A stretch of DNA of 64,000 bases, taken from the NCBI GenBank assembly GCA_031280685.1, contig JAITGM010000010.1, forward strand, positions 124,001-188,000. Direction: 5' to 3'. Source of the DNA: Christensenellaceae bacterium. GTDB lineage: Bacteria > Bacillota > Clostridia > Christensenellales > UBA1750. The notes beneath the pieces are model-generated. The model saw only the letters and a program-made list of their open reading frames with translations. It had not been told where the DNA came from and did not search any database. Positions 9,034-16,293 of this stretch are shown piece by piece. Both the position numbers and the translations under genes were made by a program. Numbering within the stretch: the stretch's first letter is position 1; each line of letters starts with the position of its first letter.

Positions 9034-9063
9034 TCTCTCAGGCCCAATCACAGCCACGGCGAG

Positions 9064-9093
9064 CCGGTACACGAAGGTGTGCCGGTTTTTTTT
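9064..9093 (+). terminator. Rho-independent terminator after the pseudo-transglutaminase lipoprotein
   Basis: Nine-pair stem CCGGTACAC / GTGTGCCGG (one G-T pair, small loop) directly followed by eight T residues (9086-9093). Confidence 0.85.
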
Positions 9094-9648: not shown

Positions 9649-11175
9649 ATGCAAAAAACAGAACTGCCATGCGAGCCCGAGGCGCTGGTGCAGAAGCTAA
9701 TGGGCCTGTACCGCGGCTTCCGCGAAGGTTCGAGGATGATCGAAGAAAAGTATGCGCGCAACCACAGGCTGTATCTGGAGCAGACGCTGGGGAGGGAAAG
9801 CGGCGAAGCCCCGCGCACGGGCACGCCGGTGCTCTACGCGACCTACCGGCAGGAGCTGAGCGACGCCATGGAATTGATCCCTGAAGCGATCTTCCTGGCG
9901 CGAAAGGCGGGCGACGAGCAAAGGGCGGCGAAATTTACGGCCCTGAGCCGCGCCAGCCTGGAGAGAATGGGCTTTGCCGAGGAGTATTTGCGGGTTTGCG
10001 AATACCGCGCGCGTTATGGAACCGGCTACACCGAATGCTCGATGGATGGTGGCGAGCCACTGATCCGGGCCTTTGACCCGAGGGCGATCTTCCCCGACCC
10101 GCTCTGCGAAGACATACAGGAGGGACGGGCGCTGATCAAGCTGAGCCTGCACCCAAAGGAGCACTATGAGCGCAACTACCCCGAAGCCTTTGAAAGGATG
10201 CGGCCCGGCGACGAACCGAGCGGCATGCCCCTTGCGGATGGGGAACTGATCCCCCTGCTGAGCTTTTACCTAAAGGAACGGCAGGGTGGCAAGGCGGCCC
10301 TGCACCTGATCAAGATCGCTGGGGGAGAGCTTCTCTATGATTCAAGGGCGGAGCACCCAAACGGGCTTTATGCCCACGGCGAATACCCCTTCGTGGCCTG
10401 GCATTACGACAGGCTGCCGGGCACGCCCTGGGGATTTGGGAGCTTCGACTACCTGGCCCCAGTGCAGGGCTACATCGACAAGTTGGACTCCCTGGTGATG
10501 CGGAACCTCGCCCGTGCGGCCAAACCAAGGCTCATCGTAAGCAGATCATCAGGGATTGACCCGGAGCAGCTTCGCGATGAGAACGAGGAGATCATCGAGG
10601 CCGACCGCCTCGACGAGAGTGCCCTGCGCTGGCAGCCGAGCGCGCAGATGCCGGGCTACGCCATCGAAATGCTAAACCTCAAGGCGGAGATGCTCAAGCG
10701 CGAAAGCGGCGAAAACGGAGTGTCGCGCGGGGAAAGCGGCGCTGTCAAGGGGCTTTCGGGCGCTGCGATCTCGATGCTGCAAGCTGCCGGCAGCAAGCGC
10801 GCGAATCTTTCGCAATTCGCCATCAACAACGCCTTCATGCGCATGGTGCGCCAGCTCACGAGCAACCTCATTGAGCATGGGGACGCGGAGCTAAGCTACC
10901 GCGACGGGGAAAGCTACCTGAGCCTGGGCCCCGAGTACGCGGGCGCCGGCTGGGAGTTCGACCTGGAAGTGCGGCTGCAGCGAATGCCGCAATACCAGAG
11001 CGTCTATCAAAATCAGCTGCTCATGCAGCTGGTGCAGATGCAGGTGCTGCCGGCGCGCGCCGCGCTGGAGCTTATGGACATCGAGGATAAGGCCTCGATT
11101 CTCTCCCTGGCGGACAGGGAGGCGCAGGAAAAAGAAAGAAGGAGTGAAAACCATGCTGAAACCGAAGCTGTTTAA
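9649..11175 (+). CDS. Phage portal protein, podovirus type
   Basis: The dodecameric ring at one capsid vertex through which DNA enters and leaves. The 508-residue protein has the usual portal composition: an N-terminal helical part (VQKLMGLYRGFREGSRMIEEKY), a central wing/stem with RAFDPRAIFPDPLCEDIQEG and ALIKLSLHPKEHY, the domain YPFVAWHYDRLPGTPWGFGS, and a C-terminal helical crown region GLSGAAISMLQAAGSKRANL. DPRAIFPDP and the DxLVMRNLARAAKPR block are typical of portals from short-tailed phages. Strong GGAAGGAGG site before ATG. It is first in a co-oriented set of virion genes with no terminase upstream, which is abnormal. Reading frame is intact. Base composition matches the host. Confidence 0.85.
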   Translation: MQKTELPCEPEALVQKLMGLYRGFREGSRMIEEKYARNHRLYLEQTLGRESGEAPRTGTPVLYATYRQELSDAMELIPEAIFLARKAGDEQRAAKFTALSRASLERMGFAEEYLRVCEYRARYGTGYTECSMDGGEPLIRAFDPRAIFPDPLCEDIQEGRALIKLSLHPKEHYERNYPEAFERMRPGDEPSGMPLADGELIPLLSFYLKERQGGKAALHLIKIAGGELLYDSRAEHPNGLYAHGEYPFVAWHYDRLPGTPWGFGSFDYLAPVQGYIDKLDSLVMRNLARAAKPRLIVSRSSGIDPEQLRDENEEIIEADRLDESALRWQPSAQMPGYAIEMLNLKAEMLKRESGENGVSRGESGAVKGLSGAAISMLQAAGSKRANLSQFAINNAFMRMVRQLTSNLIEHGDAELSYRDGESYLSLGPEYAGAGWEFDLEVRLQRMPQYQSVYQNQLLMQLVQMQVLPARAALELMDIEDKASILSLADREAQEKERRSENHAETEAV

Positions 11176-11587
11176 GGAGCGGGCCGCGGAGGCACAGCCC
11201 TCGGAGGGGCTGGAAGGCTTGCAGGCGACGCTCGAGGAGCTGGGCATCGAGCCTGGCGACGCCGAAGGCATCCTCCGCCAGGTAGTGGAGCGCTCGCGCG
11301 GGCAGAGGGAGCTCGCCGCGCGGGTTTTGGACGCGATTGAAGCGATCGGCGACGAGAACTTCACCCTGGAAGCCCTGCGCGCCAACGAAAAGGCGATGCG
11401 CGAGCTTGAACGCGGCGCGCCCACGGGTGAAATCTACCGCAAATACTTCATGAAGGCCAAGCTGCCCCGCAGCGAAAGGGACGCGAACCTGGGCGCGGGC
11501 GCCGCGCGGGGCATGGAACTGAGCCGGGAGGACATTGAGAGGATCTCTGAGTATGTGGACAGGACGGGCAAGGTCTTTCAGCTTTAA
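11153..11587 (+). CDS. Probable capsid scaffold or head-assembly protein
   Basis: A 144-residue, charged, mostly helical protein (Glu/Arg-rich; ERSRGQRELAARVLDAIEAIG; C-terminal LSREDIERISEYVDRTGKVF). It overlaps the end of the portal gene and lies just before the capsid gene, the position at which phages carry scaffold proteins; the function is inferred from position and composition. The ATG at 11153 has AGGAG 8 bases upstream; a GTG at 11144 is the alternative. No protease domain is visible. Confidence 0.5.
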   Translation: MLKPKLFKERAAEAQPSEGLEGLQATLEELGIEPGDAEGILRQVVERSRGQRELAARVLDAIEAIGDENFTLEALRANEKAMRELERGAPTGEIYRKYFMKAKLPRSERDANLGAGAARGMELSREDIERISEYVDRTGKVFQL

Positions 11588-11662
11588 CCCGCCTAAATCA
11601 CCCTAAAACGCCGCTTTAAGTGTTGCGACAAGAAGCGAAAACGACGAAGGAGGAACCAAAAC

Positions 11663-12613
11663 ATGCCCGTGAACAACAGCCAGACCCTGGGCCTGCATTC
11701 GACGCTGCAGAACTACTACGACGGCAAGCTGCTTTTGGAGATGGAGAAGAGGCTGGTCTATTACCAAAACGGCCAGAGGAAGGCGCTGCCCGAGCACAAT
11801 GGGCGCACGGTCGAATTCTGGCGCTACGCGCCCTTTGCGCCCATCACCACGGCCCTGAGCGAGGGCGTGGTGCCCGATGGGCAGACTTTGGCGATGGAGA
11901 AGGTCATCGCGAGCGTGGAAACCTACGGCGGCTACGTTTCCACCACCGACGTGCTCACGCTCAGCGGCGTGAACACCGAAACGAACTACCTGGTTGACCT
12001 GATGGCCAAGCAGGGCGCCCTGACCCTGGATCACCTCGTCCGCGACGTGATTTCGGGCGGCAGCGCGGCCATTTACGCGGGTGGTAAGGCCGGAAGGGCC
12101 GAAGTCGGCCAGAGCGCCGTCCTGACCATTCAGGACATCCGCAAGGCGGTGCGCAGGCTCGAAAAGCTGGGGGCGCCGAAGTTCAACCGGGGCGGGATGG
12201 GCTATTACAAGGCCATCATCGGGCCGGACGCGAAGTACTCGCTGCAATCCGACCCCCTTTGGGAGGACAAGGCAAGCTACCAGCAGGCCGAGCAGATCGA
12301 AAACGGCGAGCTGGGCAAGCTCTTTGGGGTAATCTTCATCGAATCGACCGAAGCCAAGGTGTTTTCAGGCGTGGGCAATGCCGGCGCCGACCTTGGCGCC
12401 ACGGTGGTCTTTGGCGAGGATGCCTACGGAGTGGTTGACCTTGGCACCGTGGGGGACACTCCGGTGCGTACCATCATCAAGCCCCTGGGTTCCGCGGGCT
12501 CGAGCGACCCGCTCGACCAGATCGCCACGGTTGGCTGGAAGGTGAACGGCTTCACCTCGGTCATCCTCAACGAGAACTGGCTGGTTCGCATCGAGCACGG
12601 CATCGAAGCCTAG
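11663..12613 (+). CDS. Major capsid protein, N4-gp56 family
   Basis: Shell subunit of an icosahedral head. The 316-residue sequence matches the N4-gp56-type capsid family in order: an N-terminal LxxYYDGKLLLEMEKRLVYYQ arm, the GRTVEFWRYAPFAPITTALSEG segment, GGYVSTTDVL, then LEKLGAPKFNRGGMGYYKAIIGPDAKYSL, GKLFGVIFIES and a C-terminal ATVGWKVNGFTSVILNENWLVRIE. All key blocks are present and the frame is intact. AAGGAGGA ribosome site. A strong terminator directly follows, as often seen after phage capsid genes. Confidence 0.92.
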   Translation: MPVNNSQTLGLHSTLQNYYDGKLLLEMEKRLVYYQNGQRKALPEHNGRTVEFWRYAPFAPITTALSEGVVPDGQTLAMEKVIASVETYGGYVSTTDVLTLSGVNTETNYLVDLMAKQGALTLDHLVRDVISGGSAAIYAGGKAGRAEVGQSAVLTIQDIRKAVRRLEKLGAPKFNRGGMGYYKAIIGPDAKYSLQSDPLWEDKASYQQAEQIENGELGKLFGVIFIESTEAKVFSGVGNAGADLGATVVFGEDAYGVVDLGTVGDTPVRTIIKPLGSAGSSDPLDQIATVGWKVNGFTSVILNENWLVRIEHGIEA

Positions 12614-12621
12614 GGAAATGC

Positions 12622-12661
12622 GGGGCGCCGGGTTTTGCTTGAGCCCGGCGCCCCTTTTTTT
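12622..12661 (+). terminator. Terminator after the major capsid gene
   Basis: Perfect 11-bp stem GGGGCGCCGGG / CCCGGCGCCCC (12622-12632, 12644-12654), then seven T residues. It lies inside the cassette, nine bases after the capsid stop codon, and would reduce transcription of the downstream connector and tail genes relative to capsid. Confidence 0.9.
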
Positions 12662-12689
12662 GGGAAGGGACCTTGGAAGGAGGAAGACC

Positions 12690-13259
12690 ATGAAGGTATC
12701 CACGCTCATGAGCCTGTTCTTAAAGAAGCTCGGGCACGGCGGAACCGACCTTGAATACCCAGACACCGCACTTGACTACGCGCCCGAGGCGCTGAGCTAC
12801 CTAAACGAGGGCTATTTTAAGGCTCTGGCCAAGCTTAGGCCCGTAAGGGAGGAAGAAATCAGCCTGGACGCGCTCGGCTGCTTCGACCCAGGGGCGTTTT
12901 CATTGCCCGCGGTTTCGATCCGCTACCTCATTCGCGGGGGAAGGCGGCGGCGCTGCTACCTGCCCGTGAAGCGAGGCATGAAGCCCTGCTTTTTGCCCGG
13001 CGGCAAGGCGGGCGAAACGCTCTGCGTGGGGTACGAATTCGACCCGCCGCAGCTAAGCTCGGACGAAGACGAGCCGCTGCTTGAGCCCGAGTTCATCCAC
13101 AGCGTGCTAGCCGATTATGCGGCGGCGCGGGTGCTGGAAGCAAGGGGCGAAACCGCGCAGGCAGGCGCGCTGTATGGCGCGTTCGAAAGGGCGCTTTTGC
13201 TGCTCAGGCCCCCGCGCGGGCCGTTCGAAAATAAGTACAAGGCCTGGGAAGGGCTTTAG
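12690..13259 (+). CDS. Phage head-tail adaptor (connector) protein
   Basis: A 189-residue protein placed after the capsid gene, where podoviruses carry the adaptor that docks beneath the portal. Its C-terminal half has the pattern of such proteins: an acidic LLEPEFIHSVLADYAAARVLE helix followed by ETAQAGALYGAFERAL, as in gp4/tail-tubular-A-like adaptors. The middle is beta-rich (SIRYLIRGGRRRRCYLPV). ATG at 12690 has AAGGAGG 6-7 bases upstream; earlier in-frame codons lie in the terminator. Assignment rests on pattern and position. Confidence 0.6.
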   Translation: MKVSTLMSLFLKKLGHGGTDLEYPDTALDYAPEALSYLNEGYFKALAKLRPVREEEISLDALGCFDPGAFSLPAVSIRYLIRGGRRRRCYLPVKRGMKPCFLPGGKAGETLCVGYEFDPPQLSSDEDEPLLEPEFIHSVLADYAAARVLEARGETAQAGALYGAFERALLLLRPPRGPFENKYKAWEGL

Positions 13260-13271
13260 AAAGGGGCGCTT

Positions 13272-14708
13272 ATGCGGCAGACCATCGCGTACTTCACGGG
13301 GCTGGACGAAAGGCTGGGCCCCCTCGCGGGCGACGCCTCGGCGGCACGCAGCGCGCTGAACCTCAGCACGGATTACGGCCGTTTGGCCAGCGCGCCGGGC
13401 GCCGTGCCGGAGATCGACGAGCCGGTGCCCTGCCTCCACCCCACGCGCCTGACCGTGTTTTCGGACCGAATCGAGGGCCAGACCTTCCACTATGTGGTCG
13501 TTGGTGGGAAGGAAGGCGTTTACGCCCACAAAAACGGAGCCTGGCAGGCCATTTTTGAAGGGGAATCGAATGGGGATTGGGGCTTTTTGACCTACCAGAA
13601 GGGGGAGAATACCCTGCTGCTCTTCGGCGACGGGCTTTCGCCGGTGCAGGTCTGGGACGGCGAAACGGCGCAGGCCTCCCCTCTCCCCGGTGCGCCCGGC
13701 AAGGGGCGCTTCTTCGCCCTGAACTATGAACGGGTCTGGATGGGCGGGGACATTGAGCACCCAGATAGGCTGTATTATTCCCGCGCCATGGACGTCGAAA
13801 ACTGGACGCCCTCGGTCGAGATCCCCGACCAGGGCGGCGGCTTCGTGGAGCTGCCGACCTTCGACGGGGGCGAAACGACCGGGATCTACAAGGTGGGCGG
13901 CGATCTATGCATCTTAAAGTCCACCACGGCACTGCTGCTCTATGGCTCCTCGCCAGCCAGCTACCAAGTGATGGAAATGACAGGGAATCTGGGTACCATC
14001 GCGGGGCGCAGCGCCGCCGTGCTGGGACAGAGCGGCTTTTTCCTCACGAGCCACGGCATCGGGGTGCAATCGGGCACCGCGCTCTCGCTGCTGGACGACC
14101 GCAAGCTGCCCTGGCTCTTCGATCCTGGTTACGGCGGCGAAAACGACGGGATTTTGCGACCCCTTGGGGCAGCCTTCGGGCGCTGCGCGGCGGGCATCGC
14201 CCACAACGAGAGGCTCTATTTCACCCTTCCCTTGGGCGAGGACGAGCAAAACTCCCTCCTGCTTGAGTATGACGCGGGCAGGCAGCACTACATGCTGCAC
14301 AGCGGCGCGCCGATCCTCTCGCTTTGCAAGGCCGGGGCGATGCGCGAAAGGCTGCTCGCCCTAACCGCGGACGGAAGGGTGCTTGCCTGGGGCACGGCGC
14401 CGCACAGCCCCTACGCGCCGGCCCTTTGGCAGACGCCTTGGCTGGACTTTGGCACGAACCGGCTCAAGACGCTTTGCGGGGCCTCGCTGTTTGGCAAGGT
14501 CTTTTCGGGCGGGCGCCACGCCGCGGTGAAACTCGTCATCGAAAGCGAGAAGGGCCGTAAAAGTCGCATTCTATCGCCCAGGCGCGGCGGGGACGAGCTT
14601 TATCGCTTCGTGTTCCGCCTGCCGGGGCGGCGCTTCCGGCTAAAAATCGAATCCGTGGGCGATACCGGCTTTTGCTTCACCGGCGGGCTGGAAATGGAGG
14701 TGAACTAA
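13272..14708 (+). CDS. Phage stopper/tail hub protein, P22 gp10-like
   Basis: A 478-residue beta-rich protein likely forming the plug or nozzle below the adaptor. Repeated short strands suggest a propeller. The block NYERVWMGGDIEHPDRLYYS followed by MDVENWTP is characteristic of packaged-DNA stabilising and tail-hub proteins of short-tailed phages. GTIAGRSAAVLGQSGFFLTSHGI fits the same family. AAAGGGG ribosome site five bases before ATG; 12 bases after the adaptor gene. Frame intact. Confidence 0.65.
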   Translation: MRQTIAYFTGLDERLGPLAGDASAARSALNLSTDYGRLASAPGAVPEIDEPVPCLHPTRLTVFSDRIEGQTFHYVVVGGKEGVYAHKNGAWQAIFEGESNGDWGFLTYQKGENTLLLFGDGLSPVQVWDGETAQASPLPGAPGKGRFFALNYERVWMGGDIEHPDRLYYSRAMDVENWTPSVEIPDQGGGFVELPTFDGGETTGIYKVGGDLCILKSTTALLLYGSSPASYQVMEMTGNLGTIAGRSAAVLGQSGFFLTSHGIGVQSGTALSLLDDRKLPWLFDPGYGGENDGILRPLGAAFGRCAAGIAHNERLYFTLPLGEDEQNSLLLEYDAGRQHYMLHSGAPILSLCKAGAMRERLLALTADGRVLAWGTAPHSPYAPALWQTPWLDFGTNRLKTLCGASLFGKVFSGGRHAAVKLVIESEKGRKSRILSPRRGGDELYRFVFRLPGRRFRLKIESVGDTGFCFTGGLEMEVN

Positions 14709-14711
14709 GGA

Positions 14712-15326
14712 ATGGCGGACTCCTTCCGCGTGGAAACGGTGCCGACGCCGCGGCTGGATCTATATGGCGCCTTTGCGCGCGACCTCGCCTACTTCATGGC
14801 GCATGAGCAGAGCCCGCCGCCGCAGGCGCGCTCTGCGCTGGCGGCAGAGCAAGAGAAGATCAACAAGTTTTTGCTCTACGTCAACGAATCCTTCATCATC
14901 AAGGGCTTTTCCAAATACAACCCGAGCGCGGCAGAGCCTGCCGATTCCGACATGCTGGCGAGCTTCAACAGCCTGAGCCTGAACATCGGCGCTTCGCCCA
15001 CGATCTTTGCGCAGTTCAGCCTGAGCGCCGCAGCGCCAGCGCATCTCTTCCTGCTCTTTAGCCTGCAGGGCGTCTGGACGCCGCCTGCGGATGGCAGCGG
15101 CGTGCTGACGATCGGCCTCAAGCTGGGGAACGAGCAGGCGGCGAGCTGGAAGCACAGCCTGCAAGGCAGCTTTGACGGCGCGCAAAACAGCATCGTTTTG
15201 CCAAACCGCGCCGCGGGGCAGCATTCCATCGCCCTGACGGCGGCCTTAAGCGCCGGGCAGCTAAGCGTGCCAATCGACGGGGCCTACGCGGGCGGGTACC
15301 TGAAGCTCAAGGCCGCGCAGGATTAA
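14712..15326 (+). CDS. Unknown virion-cassette protein
   Basis: I do not recognise this 204-residue protein. The first 85 residues are helical (LDLYGAFARDLAYFMAHEQ, LAAEQEKINKFLLYVNESF). The rest looks like a beta sandwich rich in Ser/Ala/Leu (TIFAQFSLSAAAPAHLFLLFSLQG; AGQHSIALTAALSAGQLSVPIDG). It starts three bases after the hub gene, so it belongs to the same transcript. Position suggests a minor tail or capsid decoration protein, but nothing in the sequence proves that. Confidence 0.55.
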   Translation: MADSFRVETVPTPRLDLYGAFARDLAYFMAHEQSPPPQARSALAAEQEKINKFLLYVNESFIIKGFSKYNPSAAEPADSDMLASFNSLSLNIGASPTIFAQFSLSAAAPAHLFLLFSLQGVWTPPADGSGVLTIGLKLGNEQAASWKHSLQGSFDGAQNSIVLPNRAAGQHSIALTAALSAGQLSVPIDGAYAGGYLKLKAAQD

Positions 15327-15363
15327 GAACAGGGCCAAAGCAAGGCCAAGAAGGAGGAAAACC

Positions 15364-16242
15364 ATGGCAAGTTACGACAAAAGCAAGGATACGAACTATA
15401 CTCTCCTCGTGCAGCAGGCGCTTTCCGCGATGGGCGCCAACCTCGGCCCAGCGGGAATCGACGGCAAGTGGGGCGCCTACACAGACAGCGCGTACAAGGC
15501 CAACCAAAGCGTCGTAGATGCGATGCTCTATGGCGGGAGCTCATCCTCGGCCTACGGGTATGCCCCGCAGGCGCCGCAGATGCCTGAACTGAGCCTGCAA
15601 GGCGTTTCCGTGCCCGCCTCGCACGACTACTCGTACTATTACTCGATCGGCGACGCGCTCGAGGCCGAAAATTATGAGCGCCAAAAACAGCAGGCAGAAA
15701 GCCGGCTGCAAGGCGCGCAAGCCCAGCTTGAAACCGACCTTGACCAGACCAAGGCGGGCATCGCCGCCAACAGCACGGCGCGGGGCTTCGGGCGCTCGAC
15801 CTACGTGACCGATTCGCTGCTCTATGCAGATAATGCGGCCGCAGGCCAGCGCCAGAGCCTGCTCAGCGACTTTTCGCAGACCCTGCTCTATCTGGATGCG
15901 GCCCGTCATTCAGGCGCGGCGCGTTACGCTTCCGGCGCCTACGAAAACCAGCAGAGCCGCATCGCGGCGGCCGAGATGGCCAACGCCCAGATCGCCAACC
16001 AACAGGCCCTGGCGGTGTGGAATGCCCAAATGGATGCCTACAACCGCGCGCTGAGCGGCTACGAGCAGGCCAGTTCCAGCCTTGGCAGCTACTCGGCCGC
16101 TCTTTCGAGCGGCTCCTCGCGAAGCGCGGGCAGTTCCAGGGCCTCATCGGCCGCCAAAAGCGCGGCGGCGGCCAGCCCCGCGAAGCAGAGCCTGGCCAGC
16201 CAGGCGGCCAGCGTGCTCAAGCAAACCATCAGAGTGCGCTGA
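15364..16242 (+). CDS. Internal virion/ejection-like protein with N-terminal peptidoglycan-binding-like motif
   Basis: A 292-residue protein. Residues 14-45 resemble a peptidoglycan-binding-1 repeat (VQQALSAMGANLG, IDGKWGAYTDSAYKANQ). Then comes a Ser/Tyr-rich linker, a long helical or coiled-coil stretch from about 100 to 235 rich in Gln/Ala (ERQKQQAESRLQGAQAQLE; AEMANAQIANQQALAVWNAQ), and a low-complexity Ser/Ala tail. GFGRSTYVTDSL is typical of internal head proteins of podoviruses that are ejected into the cell wall. AAGGAGGA site before ATG. Last gene of the cassette; followed by a terminator. Confidence 0.5.
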   Translation: MASYDKSKDTNYTLLVQQALSAMGANLGPAGIDGKWGAYTDSAYKANQSVVDAMLYGGSSSSAYGYAPQAPQMPELSLQGVSVPASHDYSYYYSIGDALEAENYERQKQQAESRLQGAQAQLETDLDQTKAGIAANSTARGFGRSTYVTDSLLYADNAAAGQRQSLLSDFSQTLLYLDAARHSGAARYASGAYENQQSRIAAAEMANAQIANQQALAVWNAQMDAYNRALSGYEQASSSLGSYSAALSSGSSRSAGSSRASSAAKSAAAASPAKQSLASQAASVLKQTIRVR

Positions 16243-16261
16243 CCTTCGCCCCGGTCGCGCA

Positions 16262-16293
16262 AGGCGCCCAAACAAATTTGGGCGCCTTTTTTT
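16262..16293 (+). terminator. Terminator at the end of the phage cassette
   Basis: Perfect 11-bp stem AGGCGCCCAAA / TTTGGGCGCCT with a CAAA loop, continuing into seven T residues (16287-16293). Confidence 0.9.

Follow-up and report, generated by a model that had tools for sequence, protein, structure and literature searches.

The seven genes at positions 9649-16242 of the window, a 64,000-nucleotide stretch of a Christensenellaceae genome, encode a podovirus-type particle that has long been inherited by a family of uncultured gut Clostridia. A terminase gene (TerL) is present elsewhere in the same genome, and the cassette therefore most likely makes up one half of a gene transfer agent (GTA), a phage-like particle loaded with DNA of its own bacterium. 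We consider it probable that the seven genes form an operon for the head, neck and short tail of a podovirus-type GTA that is passed on vertically and has its TerS and TerL encoded at a second locus. The cassette has the gene content of a virion, is intact and conserved among relatives, and is co-inherited with the separate, intact TerL.

Genome G000, which contains the window, comprises 2.24 Mb and is 97% complete. As the initial annotation had described, the seven ORFs are all open at the coordinates stated, share one orientation and are uninterrupted, and cellular genes flank them on both sides: pth, mfd, PPIase and transglutaminase-like lipoprotein genes upstream, and a Band-7/zinc-ribbon (YdjI-like) gene downstream. 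The base composition is also host-like, as claimed, with a GC content of 63.1% in the cassette and 61.8 +/- 2.7% in the other genes of the window. In agreement with the same annotation, no integrase, holin or endolysin gene was found beside the cassette in the flanks examined, nor was a terminase gene, and these flanks do not hold the integrase, repressor, replication and lysis genes that adjoin the head genes of an active prophage. A hairpin scan returned 11 terminator-like sites against a chance expectation of 10.2; because this total is close to expectation, we placed weight on three long stems and on the post-capsid hairpins of relatives. Two of the stems, each of 12 pairs with a T run on the forward strand, end the upstream lipoprotein operon (9061-9088) and the cassette (16261-16288). 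The third, of 14 pairs followed by T7 (12622-12654, forward strand), lies directly after the capsid gene, where an internal hairpin had been predicted, and the other examined genomes of the window's family (f1) have a hairpin of differing sequence at this position, which is a probable attenuator keeping the capsid in excess. Contigs G007:C73 and G008:C70 stop right after the capsid gene, perhaps owing to the strength of this hairpin.

All seven genes lie on the forward strand. The portal (9649-11175, 508 aa) matched the SU10_portal/P22_portal families (Pfam SU10_portal, 4e-13; phrog_156, 2.5e-25) and shares 55-64% identity with its counterparts in seven relatives, and the major capsid protein (11663-12613, 316 aa; phrog_1357, 1.9e-59) is the most conserved protein of the cassette, with 68-75% identity in relatives; both assignments of the initial annotation were thus upheld. 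Between them, the 147-aa protein in the scaffold position (11144-11587) keeps its place and order in the seven relatives. The adaptor and the stopper/hub had also been named correctly, as far as weak matches indicate, although the adaptor had been started too early, at 12618. The head-tail adaptor (189 aa) scored 5e-5 against SU10_adaptor, under the curated cut-off, and most likely extends from 12690 to 13259, since the relatives begin there and 12618 precedes the hairpin. The adaptor of the g4 genomes has 125 aa compared with 189 aa in genera g1 and g2, with about 64 residues lost internally. The tail hub/stabilization-type protein (13272-14708, 478 aa) matched phrog_3287/511 weakly and, by tblastn, a 'phage stabilization protein' (5e-6), and is conserved in relatives.

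The scaffold-position gene and the last two genes had no significant family match in Pfam or phrog, and PDB sequence searches with the capsid, portal, hub and gene 7 proteins returned no significant match. The AlphaFold model of gene 6 (14712-15326, 204 aa; pLDDT 79) combines helices with a beta-sandwich forming a C1q/TNF-like knob, and its Foldseek matches in the PDB were to many C1q/TNF-like folds, including the tail-needle knobs of Sf6 and HS1. Because this fold is common, we infer from fold and position together that gene 6 encodes a tail needle- or spike-like protein. In the model of gene 7 (15364-16242, 292 aa), long helices follow a small N-terminal domain and the tail is poorly modelled; the C-terminus of the protein differs among relatives. 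The alignment and the model, together with a PG_binding_1 domain in the f2 homologue, suggest that its N-terminus is peptidoglycan-binding-like and that the protein is ejection-protein-like. A needle-like knob and a peptidoglycan-binding helical protein would suggest a particle that delivers DNA rather than an empty compartment. The gene set as a whole, which covers head, portal, neck, needle and motor, is consistent with a role in packaging and delivering DNA.

The initial annotation had reported no terminase, which is true of the cassette locus but not of the genome. The search for a terminase elsewhere that it had proposed was run with a TerL profile, built from the TerLs of cassettes in other families, against the 11 f1 genomes; TerL was present in 10, including a dedicated copy at a second locus of G000. 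A high-scoring lone TerL at a separate locus was found in seven of the eight cassette-bearing genomes and in G001, which has an assembly gap at the cassette position. In G008, an 87% complete MAG, the cassette is present and TerL was not found; the cassette-less genomes G004 and G010 have only lower-scoring TerLs. A third, lower-scoring G000 TerL (G000:C40:26661-27962) probably belongs to another prophage. The second-locus TerL lies among host genes (flanks read in five of the eight genomes), and its Walker A and other motifs are kept in the alignment columns listed. In-frame stops had been flagged in TerL; that of G000 proved by its coordinates to be the terminal stop of the gene, and the eight translated TerL reading frames contain no internal stops. 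An ORF of 64-99 aa overlaps or abuts the start of TerL; in G000 it had no Pfam match, whereas the full-length TerS of families f2 and f16 belongs to Pfam Terminase_2. From its position and size, we regard this short ORF as a putative TerS, which appears to be without the N-terminal part of the full-length protein. By contig coordinates, at least 135,847 bp separate the cassette of G000 from its TerL, a distance far beyond any podovirus head, which makes it implausible that the two loci are packaged together in one particle.

Among the 11 f1 genomes, the portal was found in eight and the capsid in those same eight, and all seven genes occur in identical order across three genera, where contigs permit; the set is absent from genera g3 and g5. 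The search of related genomes proposed in the initial annotation found the cassette at the same site in one other genus, and in G002 and G003 it adjoins the same PPIase and lipoprotein genes as in the window, whereas the g4 genomes carry it at other sites with different neighbours. In three g4 genomes (L030:11223-11858, L017:7276-7917 and L020:2624-3340), the cassette is preceded by a CI/LexA-like regulator with HTH and Peptidase_S24 domains, which is absent at the window locus and hints at SOS-type control. The relatives carry the same bare cassette and not a full prophage, the latter being a finding that would have counted against the interpretation of the initial annotation. Nor was an empty site seen among the f1 relatives; the sole candidate, G001, was rejected, as its contigs break off to either side of where the cassette would lie.

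The cassette frames in f1 are all open, with no stop codons or frameshifts. In the pairs tested by the Nei-Gojobori method, dN/dS was below 1 in every case, ranging from 0.15 to 0.69 for the cassette genes, with the highest value in the scaffold-position gene, and from 0.09 to 0.26 for TerL. These ratios indicate that the cassette is under purifying selection and support the earlier view that it is domesticated and maintained rather than decaying. The distances among f1 portals and among f1 TerLs follow those of host Mfd almost 1:1. Portal and Mfd were placed in quick trees, the hub in a careful tree and TerL in both kinds; in every tree, the f1 genomes carrying the set form one group, with g1 and g2 together and apart from g4. 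The TerLs of f1 make up a single clade (100/100), from which the prophage TerLs found in these genomes are separate. The agreement of the TerL, portal and hub trees with host mfd within f1 indicates that the set descends with the host. Patristic distances correlated with a Mantel r of 0.74-0.76, a value partly driven by between-family structure. The deep trees agree partially, because the f18 hubs split and the f11 TerL joins prophage TerLs, so that more than one domestication, or exchange, may have occurred in the deeper history.

In f2 and f16, which are other families of the order, TerS and TerL lie directly upstream of the cassette genes in an operon-like run of about 11 kb without integrase or lysis genes (ten ORFs in f2), in the order TerS, TerL, portal, scaffold, capsid, small gene, adaptor, hub, large gene and peptidoglycan-binding gene. 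Of 103 f11 genomes, 92 carry a related capsid gene, spread over 23 of the 26 genera. A single match was obtained in 88 of them and two or three matches in the other four, several of which are pieces of one gene; in some f11 genomes the cassette itself is in pieces. Across the class, 54 of 391 sampled genomes had a match, in some cases as compact clusters beside housekeeping genes. The matches outside f1 were inspected in part, and some are prophage-like (L074, L032). In another order, scaffold-capsid-adaptor-hub-type clusters adjoin housekeeping genes at L132, L133 and L134 (G541, G444 and G641), without a portal or TerL being detected close by, and may represent a similarly split system. IMG/VR contains one 6.2 kb contig with a capsid at 70% identity (L116; IMGVR_UViG_3300018878_004056), probably a locus of the host misclassified as viral; the remaining IMG/VR matches are at about 30%. 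On balance, we lean towards an ancient podovirus-type GTA that has been inherited across a large part of this clostridial order, is related to the capsid clusters of other families in the class, and has in places broken up into scattered operons with the terminase apart, all pieces being under selection.

The same gene content would be expected of a PBSX-like particle that packages host DNA and kills related cells with no gene delivery, and the authors describing the FpGTA of Faecalibacterium left such a role open for it (PMC12946183). Relatives differ in the C-terminus of the last gene, which speaks for this reading, but they retain the hub, the needle-like and the ejection-like protein, which suits DNA delivery, and no immunity or toxin gene was seen within the cassette; we regard a killing particle as unlikely. 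The initial annotation had listed a domesticated particle among its possible explanations, and it is the gene-transfer form of that proposal that the data favour. A terminase-less protein compartment, using its capsid in the manner of an encapsulin, would account for the lack of terminase at the cassette locus and for the capsid being the most conserved protein; with the portal, adaptor, hub and needle-like protein also conserved and a matching TerL kept elsewhere, we consider it very improbable.

The other two proposals of that annotation, a recently trimmed prophage and a satellite using the terminase of a helper, draw some support from G000 itself, where an apparently complete prophage (G000:C16:10163-51250; L024, L022, L025) lies some 80 kb upstream of the window. 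Its portal and capsid are related to those of the cassette (about 30-39%), in a similar head-gene order. However, it has an integrase, regulators, a Prp protease, a holin and an endolysin, which the cassette is without; the two portals are only about 30% identical; and its own TerL belongs to a different clade from the second-locus TerL of f1. The cassette is moreover intact and vertical across genera, with congruent host and cassette trees and a shared site in G002 and G003. The presence at a second locus of a matching TerL that is inherited together with the cassette speaks against the satellite, the trimmed prophage and the compartment alike, and we consider the former two very improbable.

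The closest known system in design is FpGTA, a podovirus-like GTA-type set without replication genes (PMC12946183, 2026), and it was the only Gram-positive podovirus-type GTA in the literature searched. FpGTA I is a ten-ORF, 10.5 kb operon of TerS, TerL, portal, scaffold, capsid and other genes (PMC12946183), which by described gene content corresponds to the f2 run of ten ORFs and about 11 kb. Compared by design, FpGTA and the present system both use more than one locus and a TerS without a recognisable DNA-binding domain, none being obvious in that of FpGTA (PMC12946183). They differ in that FpGTA has its terminase inside the head operon, as do f2 and f16, whereas the terminase stands apart in the window's family, and in that its host belongs to a different order of Clostridia. 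The second FpGTA locus, FpGTA II, encodes a fibre, a receptor-binding protein, a holin and an endolysin (PMC12946183), for which a non-systematic search found no counterpart here. The GTAs of Rhodobacter and other Alphaproteobacteria share with the cassette fully endogenised phage-derived genes, dispersed loci and vertical co-diversification (PMC9662315), but the matches to podovirus portal, adaptor and capsid families imply a separate phage ancestor, independent of theirs. Bacillus phages Pascal, Pony and Page and their relatives have a homologous capsid (about 33% identity) in phage records of about 40 kb, whereas the cassette has virion genes only.

Three of the six features that define GTAs (PMC9662315) were found from genes alone: particle proteins derived from caudoviricetes, as seen in the phage-family matches of the portal, capsid, adaptor, hub and TerL; full endogenisation, often at several loci, here two loci among host genes with no integrase; and mostly vertical inheritance with the host, seen within f1 and partially between families. 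The definition also includes the packaging of mostly random host DNA, delivery to other cells, and genes of its own that cannot all fit one particle (PMC9662315). In the proposed working of such a GTA, a host signal would lead some cells to express the cassette and the TerS-TerL locus, and the capsid and scaffold would assemble on the portal into a small head. Host DNA would be loaded into this head, without sequence preference, by TerL together with a TerS that lacks a recognisable DNA-binding domain, and the adaptor, hub and needle would then seal the head. Particles would be released by lysis, via genes not found here, and the peptidoglycan-binding helical protein may aid DNA entry into another cell.

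GTAs with known genes are few. A split GTA would explain a terminase-less cassette that at first sight resembles a defective prophage. GTA-like packaging has been reported for Christensenellaceae with its genes unnamed (PMC12946183), and the present analysis provides a candidate gene set and two candidate loci; if this reading is true, such particles can persist over family-level time.
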